Source: Pseudomonadota bacterium (GTDB lineage: Bacteria; Pseudomonadota; Alphaproteobacteria; Micropepsales; Micropepsaceae). From it: a stretch of DNA of 64,000 bases. Location: the NCBI GenBank assembly GCA_016201105.1, contig JACQDN010000045.1, forward strand, positions 1-64,000. The letters are read 5' to 3'. Below are positions 10,534 to 61,520 of the stretch, one piece after another; the first letter of the stretch is position 1; every line of letters starts with the position of its first letter. The notes below the pieces were generated by a model. That model was not told where the DNA came from and did no database searches. It was given only the letters and a program-made list of their open reading frames with translations. A program made the translations under genes and the position numbers.

Positions 10534-10630
10534 CGCCGTTCAGGGGTATCGCCGTCGGCGGTGACTGGCGGCTTGGAAGACGGCGCCGATTTCGGGCACT
10601 GTCGGCGCGCAGCTATTGGCGGATTGCCCG

Positions 10631-11305
10631 ATGAAAGTCTCCGATGCCTTGAAGACGCGCAAAACGGTGCGCGCATTCAAGCCCGATCCCGTGCCGCTCT
10701 CGACGCTCCGGGAAATTTTGACGGCCGCGGCGCGGGCGCCATCCGGCGGCAATCTGCAGCCCTGGCGCATCTATGCGCTCACCGGCGAAGCGCGCAACGA
10801 GCTGGTGCGCCGCGTGGCGGAGAAGCGCAAGACCAGCCCGATGGGCGAGCCGCCGGAATATCACATCTATCCCGAAAACCTGACCGAGCCCTATCGCACG
10901 CGCCGTTTCCGCGTCGGCGAGATGATGTACGCGACCATGAACATTCCGCGCGAAGACAAGATGGCGAGGCTGCAATTCTTTTCGCGCAACTGGGAATTCT
11001 TCGGCGCGCCCGTGGGTCTCATCGTCACGATGGACCGCCAGATGCAACAAGGCCAGTGGGCGGATCTCGGCATGTATCTGCAATCGGTCATGCTGCTGGC
11101 GCGCGAACACGGGCTCGATACCTGTCCGCAGGAAGCGTGGGCGGTGTTTCACGCCGTCATCCGCGATTGTCTTTCGATTCCGCAAAACGAGATGATCTTC
11201 TGCGGCATGGCGATCGGCTATGCCGACAATTCCGTAGCGGTGAATTCGCTCATCAGCGAGCGCGCGCCGCTGGAGGAATATGTGACGCTGCTCGGAGGCG
11301 AATAG
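10631..11305 (+). CDS. Nitroreductase family protein
   Basis: FMN-dependent oxidoreductase of the nitroreductase superfamily, 224 aa. The N-terminal TRKTVRAFKPDPVP block and the APSGGNLQPWR flavin-binding motif are diagnostic, and the C-terminal MAIGYADNSVAVN block completes the fold. The ATG at 10631 is preferred to the in-frame TTG at 10616. The physiological substrate is unknown; members reduce nitroaromatics, quinones or enones. The gene is followed by a REP-like inverted repeat and appears monocistronic. Confidence 0.9.
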   Translation: MKVSDALKTRKTVRAFKPDPVPLSTLREILTAAARAPSGGNLQPWRIYALTGEARNELVRRVAEKRKTSPMGEPPEYHIYPENLTEPYRTRRFRVGEMMYATMNIPREDKMARLQFFSRNWEFFGAPVGLIVTMDRQMQQGQWADLGMYLQSVMLLAREHGLDTCPQEAWAVFHAVIRDCLSIPQNEMIFCGMAIGYADNSVAVNSLISERAPLEEYVTLLGGE

Positions 11306-11384
11306 CGAGTAGGGTGAACGAATACGGCAGGTTGACGCGAGATGCAGCAAATCGATTTCCTTACTCGCCACTCGCTGTTCTCCT
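11299..11384. repeat. REP-like inverted repeat, GCGAGT family
   Basis: Imperfect inverted repeat whose arms read AGCGAGTAGGGTGAAC on the left and, reverse-complemented, GAACAGCGAGTGGCGAGTAA on the right. It begins at the nitroreductase stop codon. The same family occurs at 61471..61520. It probably forms an RNA hairpin at the 3' end of the nitroreductase transcript. Confidence 0.55.
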
Positions 11385-11396
11385 TTTTAATTGAAA

Positions 11397-11427
11397 AGCC
11401 CGTGCTGGAAATTCGCCAGCACGGGCT
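11397..11427 (-). terminator. Rho-independent terminator of the 30-aa ORF
   Basis: Perfect 12-bp inverted repeat (AGCCCGTGCTGG..CCAGCACGGGCT) with a 7-base loop. On the minus strand it is followed directly by TTTT. It lies 36 bases downstream of the small minus-strand ORF at 11463..11555. Confidence 0.85.
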
Positions 11428-11462
11428 CTTCGCTTGACGGCGTACGGATCGCGTGGAGGGGC

Positions 11463-11555
11463 TTACCGCGGTCCGTTCACCCCAAGAAGGCCAAAGCCGG
11501 ACGGTTGCACCAATCCAAGAGCCGTGCCGAACGGAATTTGGTTCAGCTTGGTCAT
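11463..11555 (-). CDS. Putative 30-aa small protein
   Basis: ORF below the track's length limit. An ATG at 11555 is preceded by AAAGGAGCAACCACC, a strong Shine-Dalgarno at good spacing, and the frame closes with TAA shortly before a perfect terminator hairpin. The predicted peptide starts MTKLNQIPFGTALG, continues with LVQPSGFGLLGV and ends NGPR; it is glycine-rich and moderately hydrophobic with no cysteine. The combination of RBS, short frame and terminator suggests a genuine monocistronic unit. Alternatives are the tail of a regulatory RNA or a leader peptide. I do not recognise a family. Confidence 0.6.
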   Translation of the reverse strand: MTKLNQIPFGTALGLVQPSGFGLLGVNGPR

Positions 11556-11717
11556 GGTGGTTGCTCCTTTCCGGGCTCGATCTCTTTCAGGCCGCACTCC
11601 CGTTAACGCGTTCGTTGGCGGTCGTGCCTTCTGTGGCGTAAACTGGCACTGTCACTCTGAATGCAGTCTGGACGGGGCGTTCATGCGCCGTTCATCGCCA
11701 AGCACATAGAAAACAGC

Positions 11718-12233
11718 ATGCGTAAGTTGGCGTTTTTCCTGCTGTTCGCCCTCGTCACGGCGAGTGGCATGCAAGTGCGCGCCGATGATCGTCATCCACG
11801 CGATCGCGCGCGTAGCGGCGAGATCCAGCCGCTCGATCAGATTCTGCCGCAATTGCGCGGTTCCTATCCTGGAACCTTTTACGATGCCGATGGACCGTTT
11901 CCCGACGGGCGCGGCGGCTATCGCTACCGCATCAAATGGCTGACGCCCGACGGCCGCGTGATCTGGCTCGATACCGACGCACGCACGGGCCGCGTCATGG
12001 GAACCGACAGAAGCGAACGCGAGAGGGGAAACAATGACGATTCCACTTCGCGCCGCGACCGCTTCGACGGCGATCGCCAGCGCGACGATCGTTCCACATC
12101 CGATCCGTGGAACCGCGACAACGGCCGCCGCAATGATGACAACAACTCCCGCTCTGATCGAGGCAACCGGGACAACGTTCCCCGCAACAACGACCGGTCG
12201 GACGATTCGAGGCGCCATGACCTGGGTGGATAG
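11718..12233 (+). CDS. Exported PepSY-like protein upstream of a two-component system
   Basis: 171-aa protein starting at MRKLAFFLLFALVTASGMQV, a signal peptide. The mature part has a PepSY-like unit (IQPLDQILPQLRGSYPG, GGYRYRIKWLTPDGR, DARTGRVMG) and then a C-terminal tail of about 65 residues composed almost wholly of D, R, N, S and G. It ends only five bases before the response-regulator start, so the three genes form an operon. In rhizobia the periplasmic protein FeuN restrains the homologous-looking FeuPQ system; a similar sensor-modulating role here is an inference. The charged tail may be disordered. Confidence 0.75.
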   Translation: MRKLAFFLLFALVTASGMQVRADDRHPRDRARSGEIQPLDQILPQLRGSYPGTFYDADGPFPDGRGGYRYRIKWLTPDGRVIWLDTDARTGRVMGTDRSERERGNNDDSTSRRDRFDGDRQRDDRSTSDPWNRDNGRRNDDNNSRSDRGNRDNVPRNNDRSDDSRRHDLGG

Positions 12234-12238
12234 ATGAC

Positions 12239-12925
12239 ATGCGCATTCTTTTGGTGGAAGACGATCAGGATTTGCAGCGACTCTTGAAGAAGTCGTTGAC
12301 CGACGCAGGCTACGTCGTCGACGCGGCGAGCGACGGCGAGGAAGGCCATTTTCTCGGCGATACCGAACCTTACGACGCGGTGATCCTCGATCTCGGTCTG
12401 CCGAAGATGGACGGCGTGCGTGTGCTGGAGAAATGGCGGAAAGACGCCAAGACCATGCCGGTGCTCATCCTCACCGCGCGCGACCGCTGGAGCGACAAGG
12501 TAGCCGGCTTCGATGCCGGCGCCGACGATTATCTTGCCAAGCCCTTCTACACCGAGGAATTGCTCGCCCGCGTGCGCGCGCTGCTGCGCCGCGCCGCCGG
12601 TCTTGCGACCTCGGAAATCGAAATCGGACCGTTGCGCATCGATACGCGCGCCTCGCGCGTCACCATGGACGGCAGCCCCGTCAAATTGACGAGCCTCGAA
12701 TATCGCTTGCTCGCCTATCTGGCCCATCACCGCGGCCGGGTTGTGTCGCGCTCCGAGCTGGTGGAACATCTTTACGATCAGGATTTCGACCGCGATTCGA
12801 ATACCATCGAAGTGTTTGTCGGGCGTTTGCGGAAGAAGCTCGATACCAATCTGATTCAGACGGTGCGCGGCCTTGGCTATTGTCTCGAAATTCCGGACGC
12901 TAATCAGCAGCGCGCCAAGGTTTAG
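12239..12925 (+). CDS. OmpR/PhoP-family response regulator
   Basis: 228-aa DNA-binding regulator. The receiver domain shows the acidic pair in VEDDQ, phosphoacceptor Asp51 in VILDLGLPKMDG, and the conserved Lys in DDYLAKPF. The winged-helix Trans_reg_C domain follows (LTSLEYRLLAYL, then SRSELVEHLYD and VFVGRLRKKL). It is the second gene of the PepSY-regulator-kinase operon and overlaps the kinase frame. The partner kinase has a PhoQ/FeuQ-like H box, so the pair resembles PhoPQ/FeuPQ envelope-sensing systems. Target genes are unknown. Confidence 0.92.
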   Translation: MRILLVEDDQDLQRLLKKSLTDAGYVVDAASDGEEGHFLGDTEPYDAVILDLGLPKMDGVRVLEKWRKDAKTMPVLILTARDRWSDKVAGFDAGADDYLAKPFYTEELLARVRALLRRAAGLATSEIEIGPLRIDTRASRVTMDGSPVKLTSLEYRLLAYLAHHRGRVVSRSELVEHLYDQDFDRDSNTIEVFVGRLRKKLDTNLIQTVRGLGYCLEIPDANQQRAKV

Positions 12926-14294
12926 TTCGCTCTCGAGCCGCCTGATCGCGGTCGCCGCGGTCTGGACGATCGCGGGCCTCGTCGTCGGCGGGCTTTTGCT
13001 GTCGGGCATCTTTCGGGATTCGATCGAAGGCGACTTCGACGCGCGGCTGAAGTTCGAGTTGGACGACATGATTGCCGCCGCCGAGCCCGATCCTGCCGGC
13101 GGCGTTTCCTTGCAGGGCCGCTTCGCCGATCCCCGCTACGAACGCATCTATTCCGGCTGGTATTGGCAGATCGTACCCGAGGCGCGCAAAGGCGAGCATC
13201 CGCCGGAAGCGCAGATCTCGCGCTCGCTCTGGGACCGCACGGTGAAGATGACCGACAGCCTTACGCGGAAAAATCTCGTCTGGGGCTACGCGATCGGGCC
13301 CGACAACCAGAGCCTGCGGGTCGTCTCGCAACACATCGAATTTCCTATTCTCTCCACGCCCAACAGCGGTGAGCGGCGCGCCTATACGTTTCTTGTCGCG
13401 GGCGACATGTCGCAAGTGGAAGCGGACGTGGCGAGCTTCAACGGCACGCTGATCTGGTCGTTTCTTATCCTGGGGTTGGGATTGATCGCAGCGGTCTTCG
13501 TGCAGGTGCGTGTCGGACTTCAGCCGCTCAGGCGCGTCAGCGAGGCGTTGGCGCGGATCCGCGACGGCAAGGCGCGCAGGCTCGACGGTCAATTTCCATC
13601 CGAGATCGCGCCGCTGGCGAGCGAGCTCAACAGCCTCATCGAACACAGCACCGAAGTGGTGGGCCGGGCGCGCACGCATGTTTCCAATCTCGCGCATTTC
13701 CTGAAGACGCCGCTGACGGTTCTGTCTAGCGAAGCATCCGCCAATCCGGGCCCGCTCGCAGATGCGGTGATGCGGCATGTGGCGACCATGCGCCGCCAAG
13801 TCGATCACTACCTTGCGCGCGCCCGCGCCGCAGGCGCCCTCGACGCGCTCGGCAATCGCACGCTCGTCAAACCGGTGCTCGACGATCTCGCGCGCGTGCT
13901 CAAACGCATTCACGCCGAACGCGGATTAGAGATCTCCGTCGATTGCCCGCCCAGCTTGGCCTTCCGCGGCGAGCGGCAGGATTTGGAAGAGATGGCGGGC
14001 AATCTCATCGACAACGCCTGCAAATGGGCGAACGCGAAGATCTCCGTTGGCGCGGAGCGGACGGGCGGCACCAAGATGCAACTTGTCGTTGAAGATGACG
14101 GTCCCGGATTGGAGCCCGAAGATCGCTCGCGGGTCATTGAGCGCGGCGAGCGGCTCGACGAAAGCGTGCCGGGCTCCGGGCTTGGCCTCTCCATCGTCCG
14201 TGATATCGCCAAGCTCTACGGCGGCACGGTTTTTCTGGAGAAAAGCGGGCTCGGCGGGCTCAGGACGCGGCTGGAGCTACCGGCGATCGCCTGA
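12873..14294 (+). CDS. PhoQ/FeuQ-like sensor histidine kinase
   Basis: Inner-membrane sensor kinase, 473 aa from the TTG at 12873. Two transmembrane helices (residues about 24-46 and 192-212) enclose a periplasmic sensor of about 145 residues. A HAMP region follows, then an H box of the PhoQ type (NLAHFLKTPLTVL, His275), the N box (NLIDNACKWA) and the G box (GSGLGLSIV). The start is uncertain: the frame overlaps the regulator by 53 bases and only TTG or CTG codons are available before the first helix. The ligand is unknown; divalent cations or envelope conditions would fit the family. Confidence 0.9.
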   Translation: MAIVSKFRTLISSAPRFSSLSSRLIAVAAVWTIAGLVVGGLLLSGIFRDSIEGDFDARLKFELDDMIAAAEPDPAGGVSLQGRFADPRYERIYSGWYWQIVPEARKGEHPPEAQISRSLWDRTVKMTDSLTRKNLVWGYAIGPDNQSLRVVSQHIEFPILSTPNSGERRAYTFLVAGDMSQVEADVASFNGTLIWSFLILGLGLIAAVFVQVRVGLQPLRRVSEALARIRDGKARRLDGQFPSEIAPLASELNSLIEHSTEVVGRARTHVSNLAHFLKTPLTVLSSEASANPGPLADAVMRHVATMRRQVDHYLARARAAGALDALGNRTLVKPVLDDLARVLKRIHAERGLEISVDCPPSLAFRGERQDLEEMAGNLIDNACKWANAKISVGAERTGGTKMQLVVEDDGPGLEPEDRSRVIERGERLDESVPGSGLGLSIVRDIAKLYGGTVFLEKSGLGGLRTRLELPAIA

Positions 14295-14374
14295 GCATTT
14301 GTGCCCTCAAGGGGGCGTTAACGGGCGCTAGGTTAACGTCAATTTGGCGTGGGCCGGTGCCCCGGGCGACGCCG

Positions 14375-15796
14375 ATGGAAAATGACATGATGGATCAGGC
14401 GAAAATCAAAGTGCTGACGGCGTTTCTCGGCCAATTGCCGGAATCGCTGGCCTTGCGCCTGGTGAAAGCGATCGAGGTCGATCGCCTGGCCGGCGGTTCG
14501 GCGCTGCCGCACGACGTCATTCTCGAAGGCATCCGGCCCGTCCTGCGCAAGGCGCAGAGCGTCGAACGTACGCCTTCGCCGCTGCGTCTGTTCACGCGTC
14601 CTTTCGAAGATCTGCTCAGCGTGTTTCCGCGCAAGGAAAAACAGAAGGGCAGCATCGCGCGCCATTCGCTGAAAGTCGTTTGGAGCTGGCTCGCGACAAC
14701 CGTGATCCCCGATGCCGTCGCGGCTTACGAAAGCGCGGTAAAAGCCGCCGTGTTCGGTTATCGCAACGAAGAAGCGATGGCGGTGGCCGCCGAATTCTGG
14801 AAAACCGCGGCCGCAGCCATCCAGGCCGCGCTCCCCGACGATAAAGCGCGCAAGGCCGCCCGCCCGGTGCTCGGCGACGAAGCCGGCGTCGCCGATGCGA
14901 TCGAAATAGCGCAACTTCTTTCCGTAGGCCCGCTGATCATCGAACTGCAGGCCGAGATGCCGCGCAATCTTCCGGCCCTGACCGACGAATACATCTGGAA
15001 GCTGCGCAAGATCTACGAGCGGGTGACCGAAATGAACGCCGACGCGGCGCCCTATGTCGCCGTGCTTGCCATGAACCGGTTGGCGCGGCCGTGGGAAGCG
15101 TTGCGCTTGCCGCTGCTGGTCGCGCGCCAGACGCAGGATACGCTGATCGCCAGCACCGATATGGGCCTGGCCGGCGAAATCCTGCTCAACGAAATGGACA
15201 TGCACGCCACTTTTATCCGCAACGCGCGTCCCCAGGCGCCGCTCGATTCCGATACGATGGCGCAGCACGTTTCGCGCTTCGCCGAACTTTCGACCGGCAT
15301 CGTCAAGGAAGTGGAGATGCGCCGCGACGGACGCTGGGGACAGCGGCTGATGAAAGATCGCGCGGCCATCGGCGGCGCGATGGACGGTTTCATGGAGCGC
15401 GCGCCGCGCGAAGTGCTTGCAGCCCTTCCGACGCAGAAGACGGGCAACTACGCCTCGAGCCCGCGCGTGCCGGACGTATCGCGCCCGCTCGATCCGGAAA
15501 AGGCGAAGCGCGCCTTGGAATTCGCCAAGCTCGTGGCGCGCTGCAAAAGCTGCGCCGCCAATGCCTGCTTTGGCGCCAAGCAGAAGGACGCCGAGGATGA
15601 AATCATCCAGGCCTTGCGCAGCTACAGCGAAGATCTGGTGAAAGAGCTGCGCGCTTCCGAAGGCGCCCGCCGCGCCAACGCCGAACAATTCTTCGACGTC
15701 CTCGTCGAAATGACGACGCTGGTGTTCAGCTCTGAGGAAGGCGAATTCCTGCGCCGCCGCGGACGCGCTGCGCTGGGCACGGCGGTGGCGGCGTAA
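14375..15796 (+). CDS. Conserved alphaproteobacterial hypothetical protein
   Basis: 473-aa protein from the ATG at 14375; the ORF track's GTG at 14357 is a less likely start. Predicted to be soluble and largely alpha-helical, with no signal peptide. Two cysteine-bearing stretches (CKSCAANACFG near residue 400) could form a metal or disulfide site. Good codon usage and length argue for a real gene, and similar proteins occur in other alphaproteobacteria as hypotheticals, but I cannot assign a function. It is separated from the upstream kinase by about 80 bases containing two GTTAACG words. Confidence 0.75.
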   Translation: MENDMMDQAKIKVLTAFLGQLPESLALRLVKAIEVDRLAGGSALPHDVILEGIRPVLRKAQSVERTPSPLRLFTRPFEDLLSVFPRKEKQKGSIARHSLKVVWSWLATTVIPDAVAAYESAVKAAVFGYRNEEAMAVAAEFWKTAAAAIQAALPDDKARKAARPVLGDEAGVADAIEIAQLLSVGPLIIELQAEMPRNLPALTDEYIWKLRKIYERVTEMNADAAPYVAVLAMNRLARPWEALRLPLLVARQTQDTLIASTDMGLAGEILLNEMDMHATFIRNARPQAPLDSDTMAQHVSRFAELSTGIVKEVEMRRDGRWGQRLMKDRAAIGGAMDGFMERAPREVLAALPTQKTGNYASSPRVPDVSRPLDPEKAKRALEFAKLVARCKSCAANACFGAKQKDAEDEIIQALRSYSEDLVKELRASEGARRANAEQFFDVLVEMTTLVFSSEEGEFLRRRGRAALGTAVAA

Positions 15797-61470: not shown

Positions 61471-61520
61471 CGAATGGCGAGTAGCGAATAGAGAAAACAG
61501 CTTTGCATTCGCCACTCGCG
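61471..61520. repeat. REP-like inverted repeat, GCGAGT family
   Basis: GAATGGCGAGTAGCGAATAG on the left and ATTCGCCACTCGC on the right, about 15 bases apart. It is the second example of the family at 11299..11384 and lies between the two VOC genes. Confidence 0.7.

Follow-up and report, generated by a model that had tools for sequence, protein, structure and literature searches.

A conserved structured RNA in Rhizomicrobium, a candidate small RNA beside a PhoP/FeuP-like two-component operon, with a probable relic of a secreted-protein gene

Introduction

The small RNAs (sRNAs) CcsR1–4 of Rhodobacter sphaeroides have CCUCCUCCC loops. They derive from the 3' untranslated region (3' UTR) of ccaF1, which encodes a DUF1127 RNA-binding protein (PMC8625941). 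GsrN, the general stress sRNA of Caulobacter, depends on sigma-T/EcfG, lies near sigT/phyR and acts on G-rich mRNA through a C-rich loop (PMC5869019), and ChvR of Caulobacter crescentus, which is specific to that species, is under the control of ChvI-ChvG, lies upstream of recF/gyrB and has two pairing stem-loops (PMC6237742). In S. meliloti the candidate FeuP site is TTCA-N7-TTCA, and feuN, feuP and feuQ are predicted to be co-transcribed (PMC3616915). Here we describe a conserved structured RNA, a candidate sRNA, that overlaps the end of a 30-codon open reading frame (ORF) on the minus strand of a 64,000-nt stretch of DNA (positions 1–64,000 of contig JACQDN010000045.1, assembly GCA_016201105.1, a Pseudomonadota bacterium of the Micropepsaceae; this whole stretch is called the window below).

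The locus resembles each of these systems in part. Like GsrN, the RNA is about 100 nt long, is restricted to a narrow group, usually lies near its own regulator genes and has an exposed C-rich loop as its most conserved part (PMC5869019), whereas the adjoining genes encode an OmpR-type regulator and a PhoQ-like kinase, the conserved promoter is of another type, with a two-component operator, and at most loci the RNA forms a 3' UTR. With ChvR (PMC6237742) it would share the character of a lineage-restricted, trans-acting alphaproteobacterial sRNA activated by a two-component system, activation being a prediction here, but kinase and regulator are a different pair, the C-rich loop is single and the family spans the genus; the neighbouring kinase reaches just 45 bits with the ChvG model, whose cutoff is 740, and matches PhoQ far better, and the sequence by itself leaves room for control by a distant ChvI. 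CcsR1–4 are the model for the coding form of our locus, except that the parent gene here encodes a secreted, weakly PepSY-like protein instead of a DUF1127 protein (Pfam yields a sub-threshold PepSY match alone, and no Pfam or NCBIfam family is assigned) and that the control region resembles a PhoP/FeuP site. The operator repeats (TGAAC-N6-TGAAY, upstream of the predicted start site) equal the candidate FeuP site, and the small modulator gene feuN with feuP and feuQ is the same kind of gene set as the PepSY protein, regulator and kinase found here, although no sRNA is tied to FeuP in the available part of PMC3616915.

A conserved structured RNA in the genus

The element around the stop codon of the ORF and the terminator is a conserved structured RNA, with the following parts.

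Positions 11389–11488, minus strand: candidate sRNA, a conserved structured RNA of about 95–100 nt in which a hairpin with a C-rich loop precedes an intrinsic terminator; match of 83.5 bits (E 2e-15) to covariance model R1, which was built from 19 sequences, the window copy among them.
Positions 11433–11486, minus strand: main hairpin with a CUUG...CAAG closing stem, a covarying stem and an apical C-rich loop, based on folds, an arm-swap test and pair counts.
Positions 11455–11462, minus strand: invariant loop octamer GCCCCUCC, which resembles an anti-Shine-Dalgarno (anti-SD) sequence, presumed seed.
Positions 11393–11427, minus strand: intrinsic terminator, a perfect 12-bp stem followed by TTTT, seen in the sequence and as covarying helix 4 in 62 copies.

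When the stretch from the nitroreductase gene to the regulator operon was compared among 20 Rhizomicrobium genomes, similarity was found exactly over the ORF end, the stop codon and the terminator, and the element common to 19 sequences reads CUUG...GCCCCUCC...UCAAG, followed by the terminator. R1 has matches at E<1e-4 in 57 of the 69 genus genomes, and altogether 62 copies of the RNA were found in the genus (about 57 species). Among the 62 aligned copies, 94.6% of the pair cells hold standard pairs, 253 cells have changes on both sides, and such double changes occur in 22 of the 27 pairs. Covariation scores 0.462 as compared to 0.207 for shuffled data (0 of 500 shuffles reach the observed score) and no more than 0.115 once the partner is shifted by 1–3 columns; this alignment was fitted to the covariance model and so leans towards structure. 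An alignment-free arm-swap test gave a mean of -24.2 kcal/mol for the copies' own arms vs -15.4 kcal/mol for swaps between species, with none of 10000 permutations as low. A conserved intergenic or UTR element with covarying structure, one of the general marks of an sRNA, is therefore present at this site.

We found no Rfam match at the gathering threshold in the window; the best sub-threshold match, c-di-GMP-II (E 0.42), is an unrelated model and was rejected. Outside the genus, the best match in 385 genomes of the class had E 5e-5 among many weak terminator-like matches, none of which was accepted. An exact-pattern scan of genome contigs returned 10 loci, all from Alphaproteobacteria, Proteobacteria or Rhizomicrobium. 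We note that tandem copies of the RNA occur near the same regulator at loci L180 (G016), L155 (G074), L158 (G073) and L157 (G081); G016 has three copies, and the outer two have neither a secreted-protein gene directly before them nor an operator nearby.

The invariant loop

The octamer GCCCCUCC is identical in 61 of the 62 copies while the stem varies, which gives the RNA the GsrN-like property of an exposed C-rich loop as its most conserved part; in the window RNA the octamer is predicted to be unpaired at 0.74–1.0. The RNA would act in trans, the exposed loop pairing with the G-rich Shine-Dalgarno (SD) sequence of target mRNAs and repressing their translation, and we give this anti-SD mode of action a slightly better than even chance. 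Sites of the form GGAGGGGC-N(2-9)-ATG, searched in six genomes, exceed the reversed control in most of them but not in the window genome (8 vs 9), and the excess could be explained by SD usage alone.

A lone exposed loop that stays invariant while its stem varies also marks protein-binding sites, so the element might bind a protein, acting as a sponge for an RNA-binding regulator or as its antagonist, and not work by base pairing. Nothing specific speaks against this reading, which we nevertheless consider unlikely, an alphaproteobacterial C-rich loop being known to pair with G-rich mRNA (GsrN, PMC5869019).

Divergent operator, promoter and two-component system

Upstream of the RNA lie the predicted control elements and the genes of the divergent operon.

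Positions 11657–11694, no strand assigned: shared divergent operator TGAAC-N6-TGAAY-N6-TCCAGA-N4-RTTCAG, containing TTCA-N7-TTCA repeats that read both ways; matched once in the window genome.
Positions 11640–11645, minus strand: predicted -10 hexamer CAGTTT of the RNA promoter, at fixed spacing; predicted transcription start near 11633.
Positions 11718–12233, plus strand: probably leaderless gene that opens the divergent operon and encodes a PepSY-like secreted protein; weak Pfam PepSY match (E 0.0043), below the gathering score.
Positions 12239–12925, plus strand: OmpR/PhoP-type response regulator, presumed to act on the operator; best NCBIfam models PmrA/CopR/PhoP, all below their cutoffs.
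Positions 12873–14294, plus strand: sensor histidine kinase with a PhoQ-like catalytic part; NCBIfam PhoQ model E 1.6e-47, below the cutoff.

Allowing up to 3 mismatches, the operator has one match in the window genome (0 for the control), and it is present upstream of nearly all RNA copies. On the RNA side, a hexamer with A at its second and T at its sixth position is found exactly 11 nt past the box in 58 of 59 loci, as compared to at most 11 of 59 for other spacings. On the operon side (window positions 11695–11720, plus strand), nearly all aligned loci have a TAGAAA-like hexamer 11–12 nt past the repeat and an ATG about 10 nt later; with this hexamer right before the ATG of the PepSY gene, the PepSY-regulator-kinase operon is probably leaderless. 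Since the model scores of regulator and kinase are all below cutoffs, we label the system PhoP/FeuP-like and give it no closer name.

In three short-form copies (G004:C62, G003:C172 and copy 1 of G081) the box is present and the RNA begins 20–29 nt after it. This coincides with the predicted start (about +24 past the box), so the element itself would be the predicted transcript in these forms. A scan for consensus promoters and terminators found nothing, probably because the promoter is of the activator type and the T-run of the terminator is short; judged from the sequence, the RNA has a promoter of its own and an intrinsic terminator, another general mark of sRNAs. A further operator-like site with 2 mismatches is seen at G003:C108:789-826 (L192), in a genome whose RNA no longer neighbours the regulator. 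The window also contains, past the histidine kinase gene, a 479-aa ORF (14357–15793, plus strand) with no Pfam match.

Secreted protein upstream of the RNA

In nearly all cases the RNA points away from one and the same operon of PepSY, response regulator and kinase genes and lies 0.7–2 kb upstream of the response regulator, an ortholog of which is found in 56 of the 69 genus genomes. At most loci the gene for a secreted protein (about 93–148 aa, conserved end YVVRSYDRFGRVVFVEVNPYTGAFIG, SD sequence AAGGAGACG) has its stop codon 0–16 nt before the first base of the RNA, and the RNA is therefore the 3' UTR of this protein's mRNA in most species.

Several genomes have kept the RNA and lost the protein. 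The gene is absent from the window genome and from G034, G071, G079, G077, G004 and G063, and it is broken in three others: internally deleted in G067, frameshifted in G078 and reduced to a fragment in G013 (some genomes are draft assemblies, and lone frameshifts such as that in G078 could be sequencing errors). No copy of the gene was found elsewhere in the window genome, while the same alignment recovered it in G031 and G025. On a tree of the regulator-kinase region, which holds one long, possibly misaligned row (G083, protein-bearing), the ten protein-less genomes need seven changes, at least four of them forced by well-supported branches. Copies of the RNA unlinked to the operon are found in G004 (contig C62) and G003 (contig C172).

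These losses bear on a rival reading, in which the element does nothing in trans and is an elaborate 3' UTR (a terminator plus a stabilising hairpin) serving to protect or terminate the secreted protein's mRNA, as would fit its place directly after the stop codon at most loci and the fact that terminator hairpins are common. We hold this to be improbable, given that at least ten genomes lacking an intact protein have retained the RNA after several independent changes, that the two unlinked short forms contain the operator and almost nothing else, and that a terminator would not need a loop that is invariant over 8 nt while its stem covaries freely.

The 30-codon reading frame

The ORF at the window locus consists of the following parts.

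Positions 11463–11555, minus strand: 30-codon ORF (stop included), peptide MTKLNQIPFGTALGLVQPSGFGLLGVNGPR, probable relic of the start of the secreted-protein gene fused into its 3' UTR RNA.
Positions 11564–11570, minus strand: SD sequence AAAGGAG of the ORF, in the same position as in the intact gene of relatives (AAGGAGACG-ATG).

The preliminary description of this DNA had pointed to an SD sequence, an ATG, 30 codons, a TAA and a 12-bp hairpin followed by TTTT, and all of these are present in the sequence. On the minus strand, AAAGGAG (11570–11564) is followed after an 8-nt spacer by the ATG (11555), the 30 codons run down to 11466, and the TAA occupies 11465–11463; 35 nt separate the stop from the perfect 12-bp stem (11427–11416 / 11408–11397, with a 7-nt loop). 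An alternative in-frame GTG at 11597 would lengthen the ORF to 44 aa. The ORF sits between two plus-strand genes, encoding a nitroreductase (10616–11305) and the PepSY-like secreted protein (likely start 11718).

The preliminary description also took this clean architecture to be rare for noise, which does not hold for the ORF: the window contains 7 ORFs of 25–60 aa with an SD sequence and an ATG, as compared to 4–17 in ten dinucleotide shuffles, and this part of the cassette is unremarkable. As for the terminator, it is genuine and conserved, but it is part of the RNA element, which overlaps the final ~23 nt of the ORF plus its stop codon, the TAA being the UAA directly before the octamer in the conserved loop (GG-UAA-GCCCCUCC).

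The intact secreted-protein gene of relatives and the window ORF agree in the relative position of their start and have SD sequences of one kind. The ORF shares 10 of 22 N-terminal residues with the syntenic protein of G002 (MTKLKAILTGAAVGLALVASTG / MTKLNQIPFGTALGLVQPSGFG; p<=5e-4 by shuffling, a value for this pair that is uncorrected for its choice as the best of 45 proteins compared), and the hydrophobic core is gone (1.3 vs 1.98–2.79 in every intact protein). Most likely, the ORF is the leftover start of the lost gene, and the simplest reading is that an internal deletion joined decayed signal-peptide codons to the 3' UTR RNA.

The peptide itself has no convincing relative in 60 relative genomes; the best matches (E 0.08–2) were inspected individually, and those aligned in full were rejected as pieces of larger frames or spurious open frames, with no syntenic small ORF among them. 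It gave no match by tblastn against plasmids and belongs to no Pfam or NCBIfam family, and in the first set of other genomes compared, the syntenic loci lack it but retain the terminator and the preceding hairpin. The preliminary description had itself named a disrupted frame beside a retained terminator as an outcome that would refute its reading. The earlier proposal of an undescribed small protein thus finds no support, and of the alternative offered with it, a small RNA with a coding region, the RNA is borne out as a strongly conserved structured element while the coding part looks like a relic. A functional small protein, or a dual-function sRNA that encodes the peptide (such sRNAs are known in bacteria, and the ORF is clean, has a strong SD sequence and lies on a probably transcribed RNA), is very improbable when the peptide lacks relatives in the 60 genomes, other protein-less loci (G034, G071, G079, G077) have no comparable ORF, about ten such ORFs are expected per window by chance, and the stop codon falls in the conserved loop.

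On the terminator side, inverted GAATAGCGAGTAG-like words flank the locus (11300–11312 and 11368–11380) and recur near 61.5 kb (61472–61491), with 4 matches at 2 mismatches vs 0.8 expected; as many as 4 were obtained in 3 of 100 shuffles. A similar GGCGAATAGCGAATAG lies just past the RNA of G032. These words are possibly a small dispersed repeat.

Discussion

In our view this site probably combines a relic ORF with a conserved sRNA under the control of the regulator. The best reading is that the RNA represents a new sRNA family of a kind that is already known, the two-component-controlled sRNA derived from a 3' UTR. The regulator would bind the tandem TTCA-N7-TTCA repeats in the divergent promoter, driving its own PepSY-regulator-kinase operon one way and, the other way, a transcript that ends in the ~95-nt RNA. 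In most Rhizomicrobium species this transcript would be the mRNA of the small secreted protein, with the RNA as its 3' UTR, presumably released by processing. In the window genome, from which the protein is lost, the surviving SD sequence, start codon and decayed signal-peptide codons would run into the RNA and make up the 30-codon ORF.

Several points weigh against this reading. Transcription and processing of the RNA, its regulator and its mode of action are predicted from sequence, and the link to FeuP was drawn from the motif and the order of the genes and not from the FeuP protein. In the stretches retrieved for the RNA copies of G015 and G025 no box could be recognised, and G023 departs from the pattern. 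For the start of the ORF, the evidence of homology comes mostly from a single relative (G002, chosen as the best of 45, with p uncorrected). No orthologous gene recurs among the 30 target-pattern sites fetched from the six genomes, and no conserved target was found there; the sRNA hypothesis has no need for the loop as seed, and the loop could bind protein.

Birth of sRNAs from mRNA 3' UTRs has often been proposed, and intermediates within one lineage have seldom been lined up. The 62 copies contain such a series, an unusually complete one, including the coding form, decayed forms (G067, G078, G013 and the window relic) and short sRNA-only forms, with the operator and the loop the same in nearly all of them. 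It is about an even call that the locus captures, within one genus, an mRNA 3' UTR turning into a free-standing regulatory RNA, in which the coding sequence was repeatedly and independently lost while promoter and RNA were kept, the unlinked copies fire at the first base of the RNA, and the invariant GCCCCUCC loop makes the RNA a translation-silencing arm of a PhoP/FeuP-like envelope sensor. The locus is also a caution that a tidy cassette of SD sequence, ORF and terminator can be the start of a pseudogene spliced onto a functional RNA. For this little-studied genus, the analysis provides a candidate sRNA together with its predicted regulator, operator, start site and seed.
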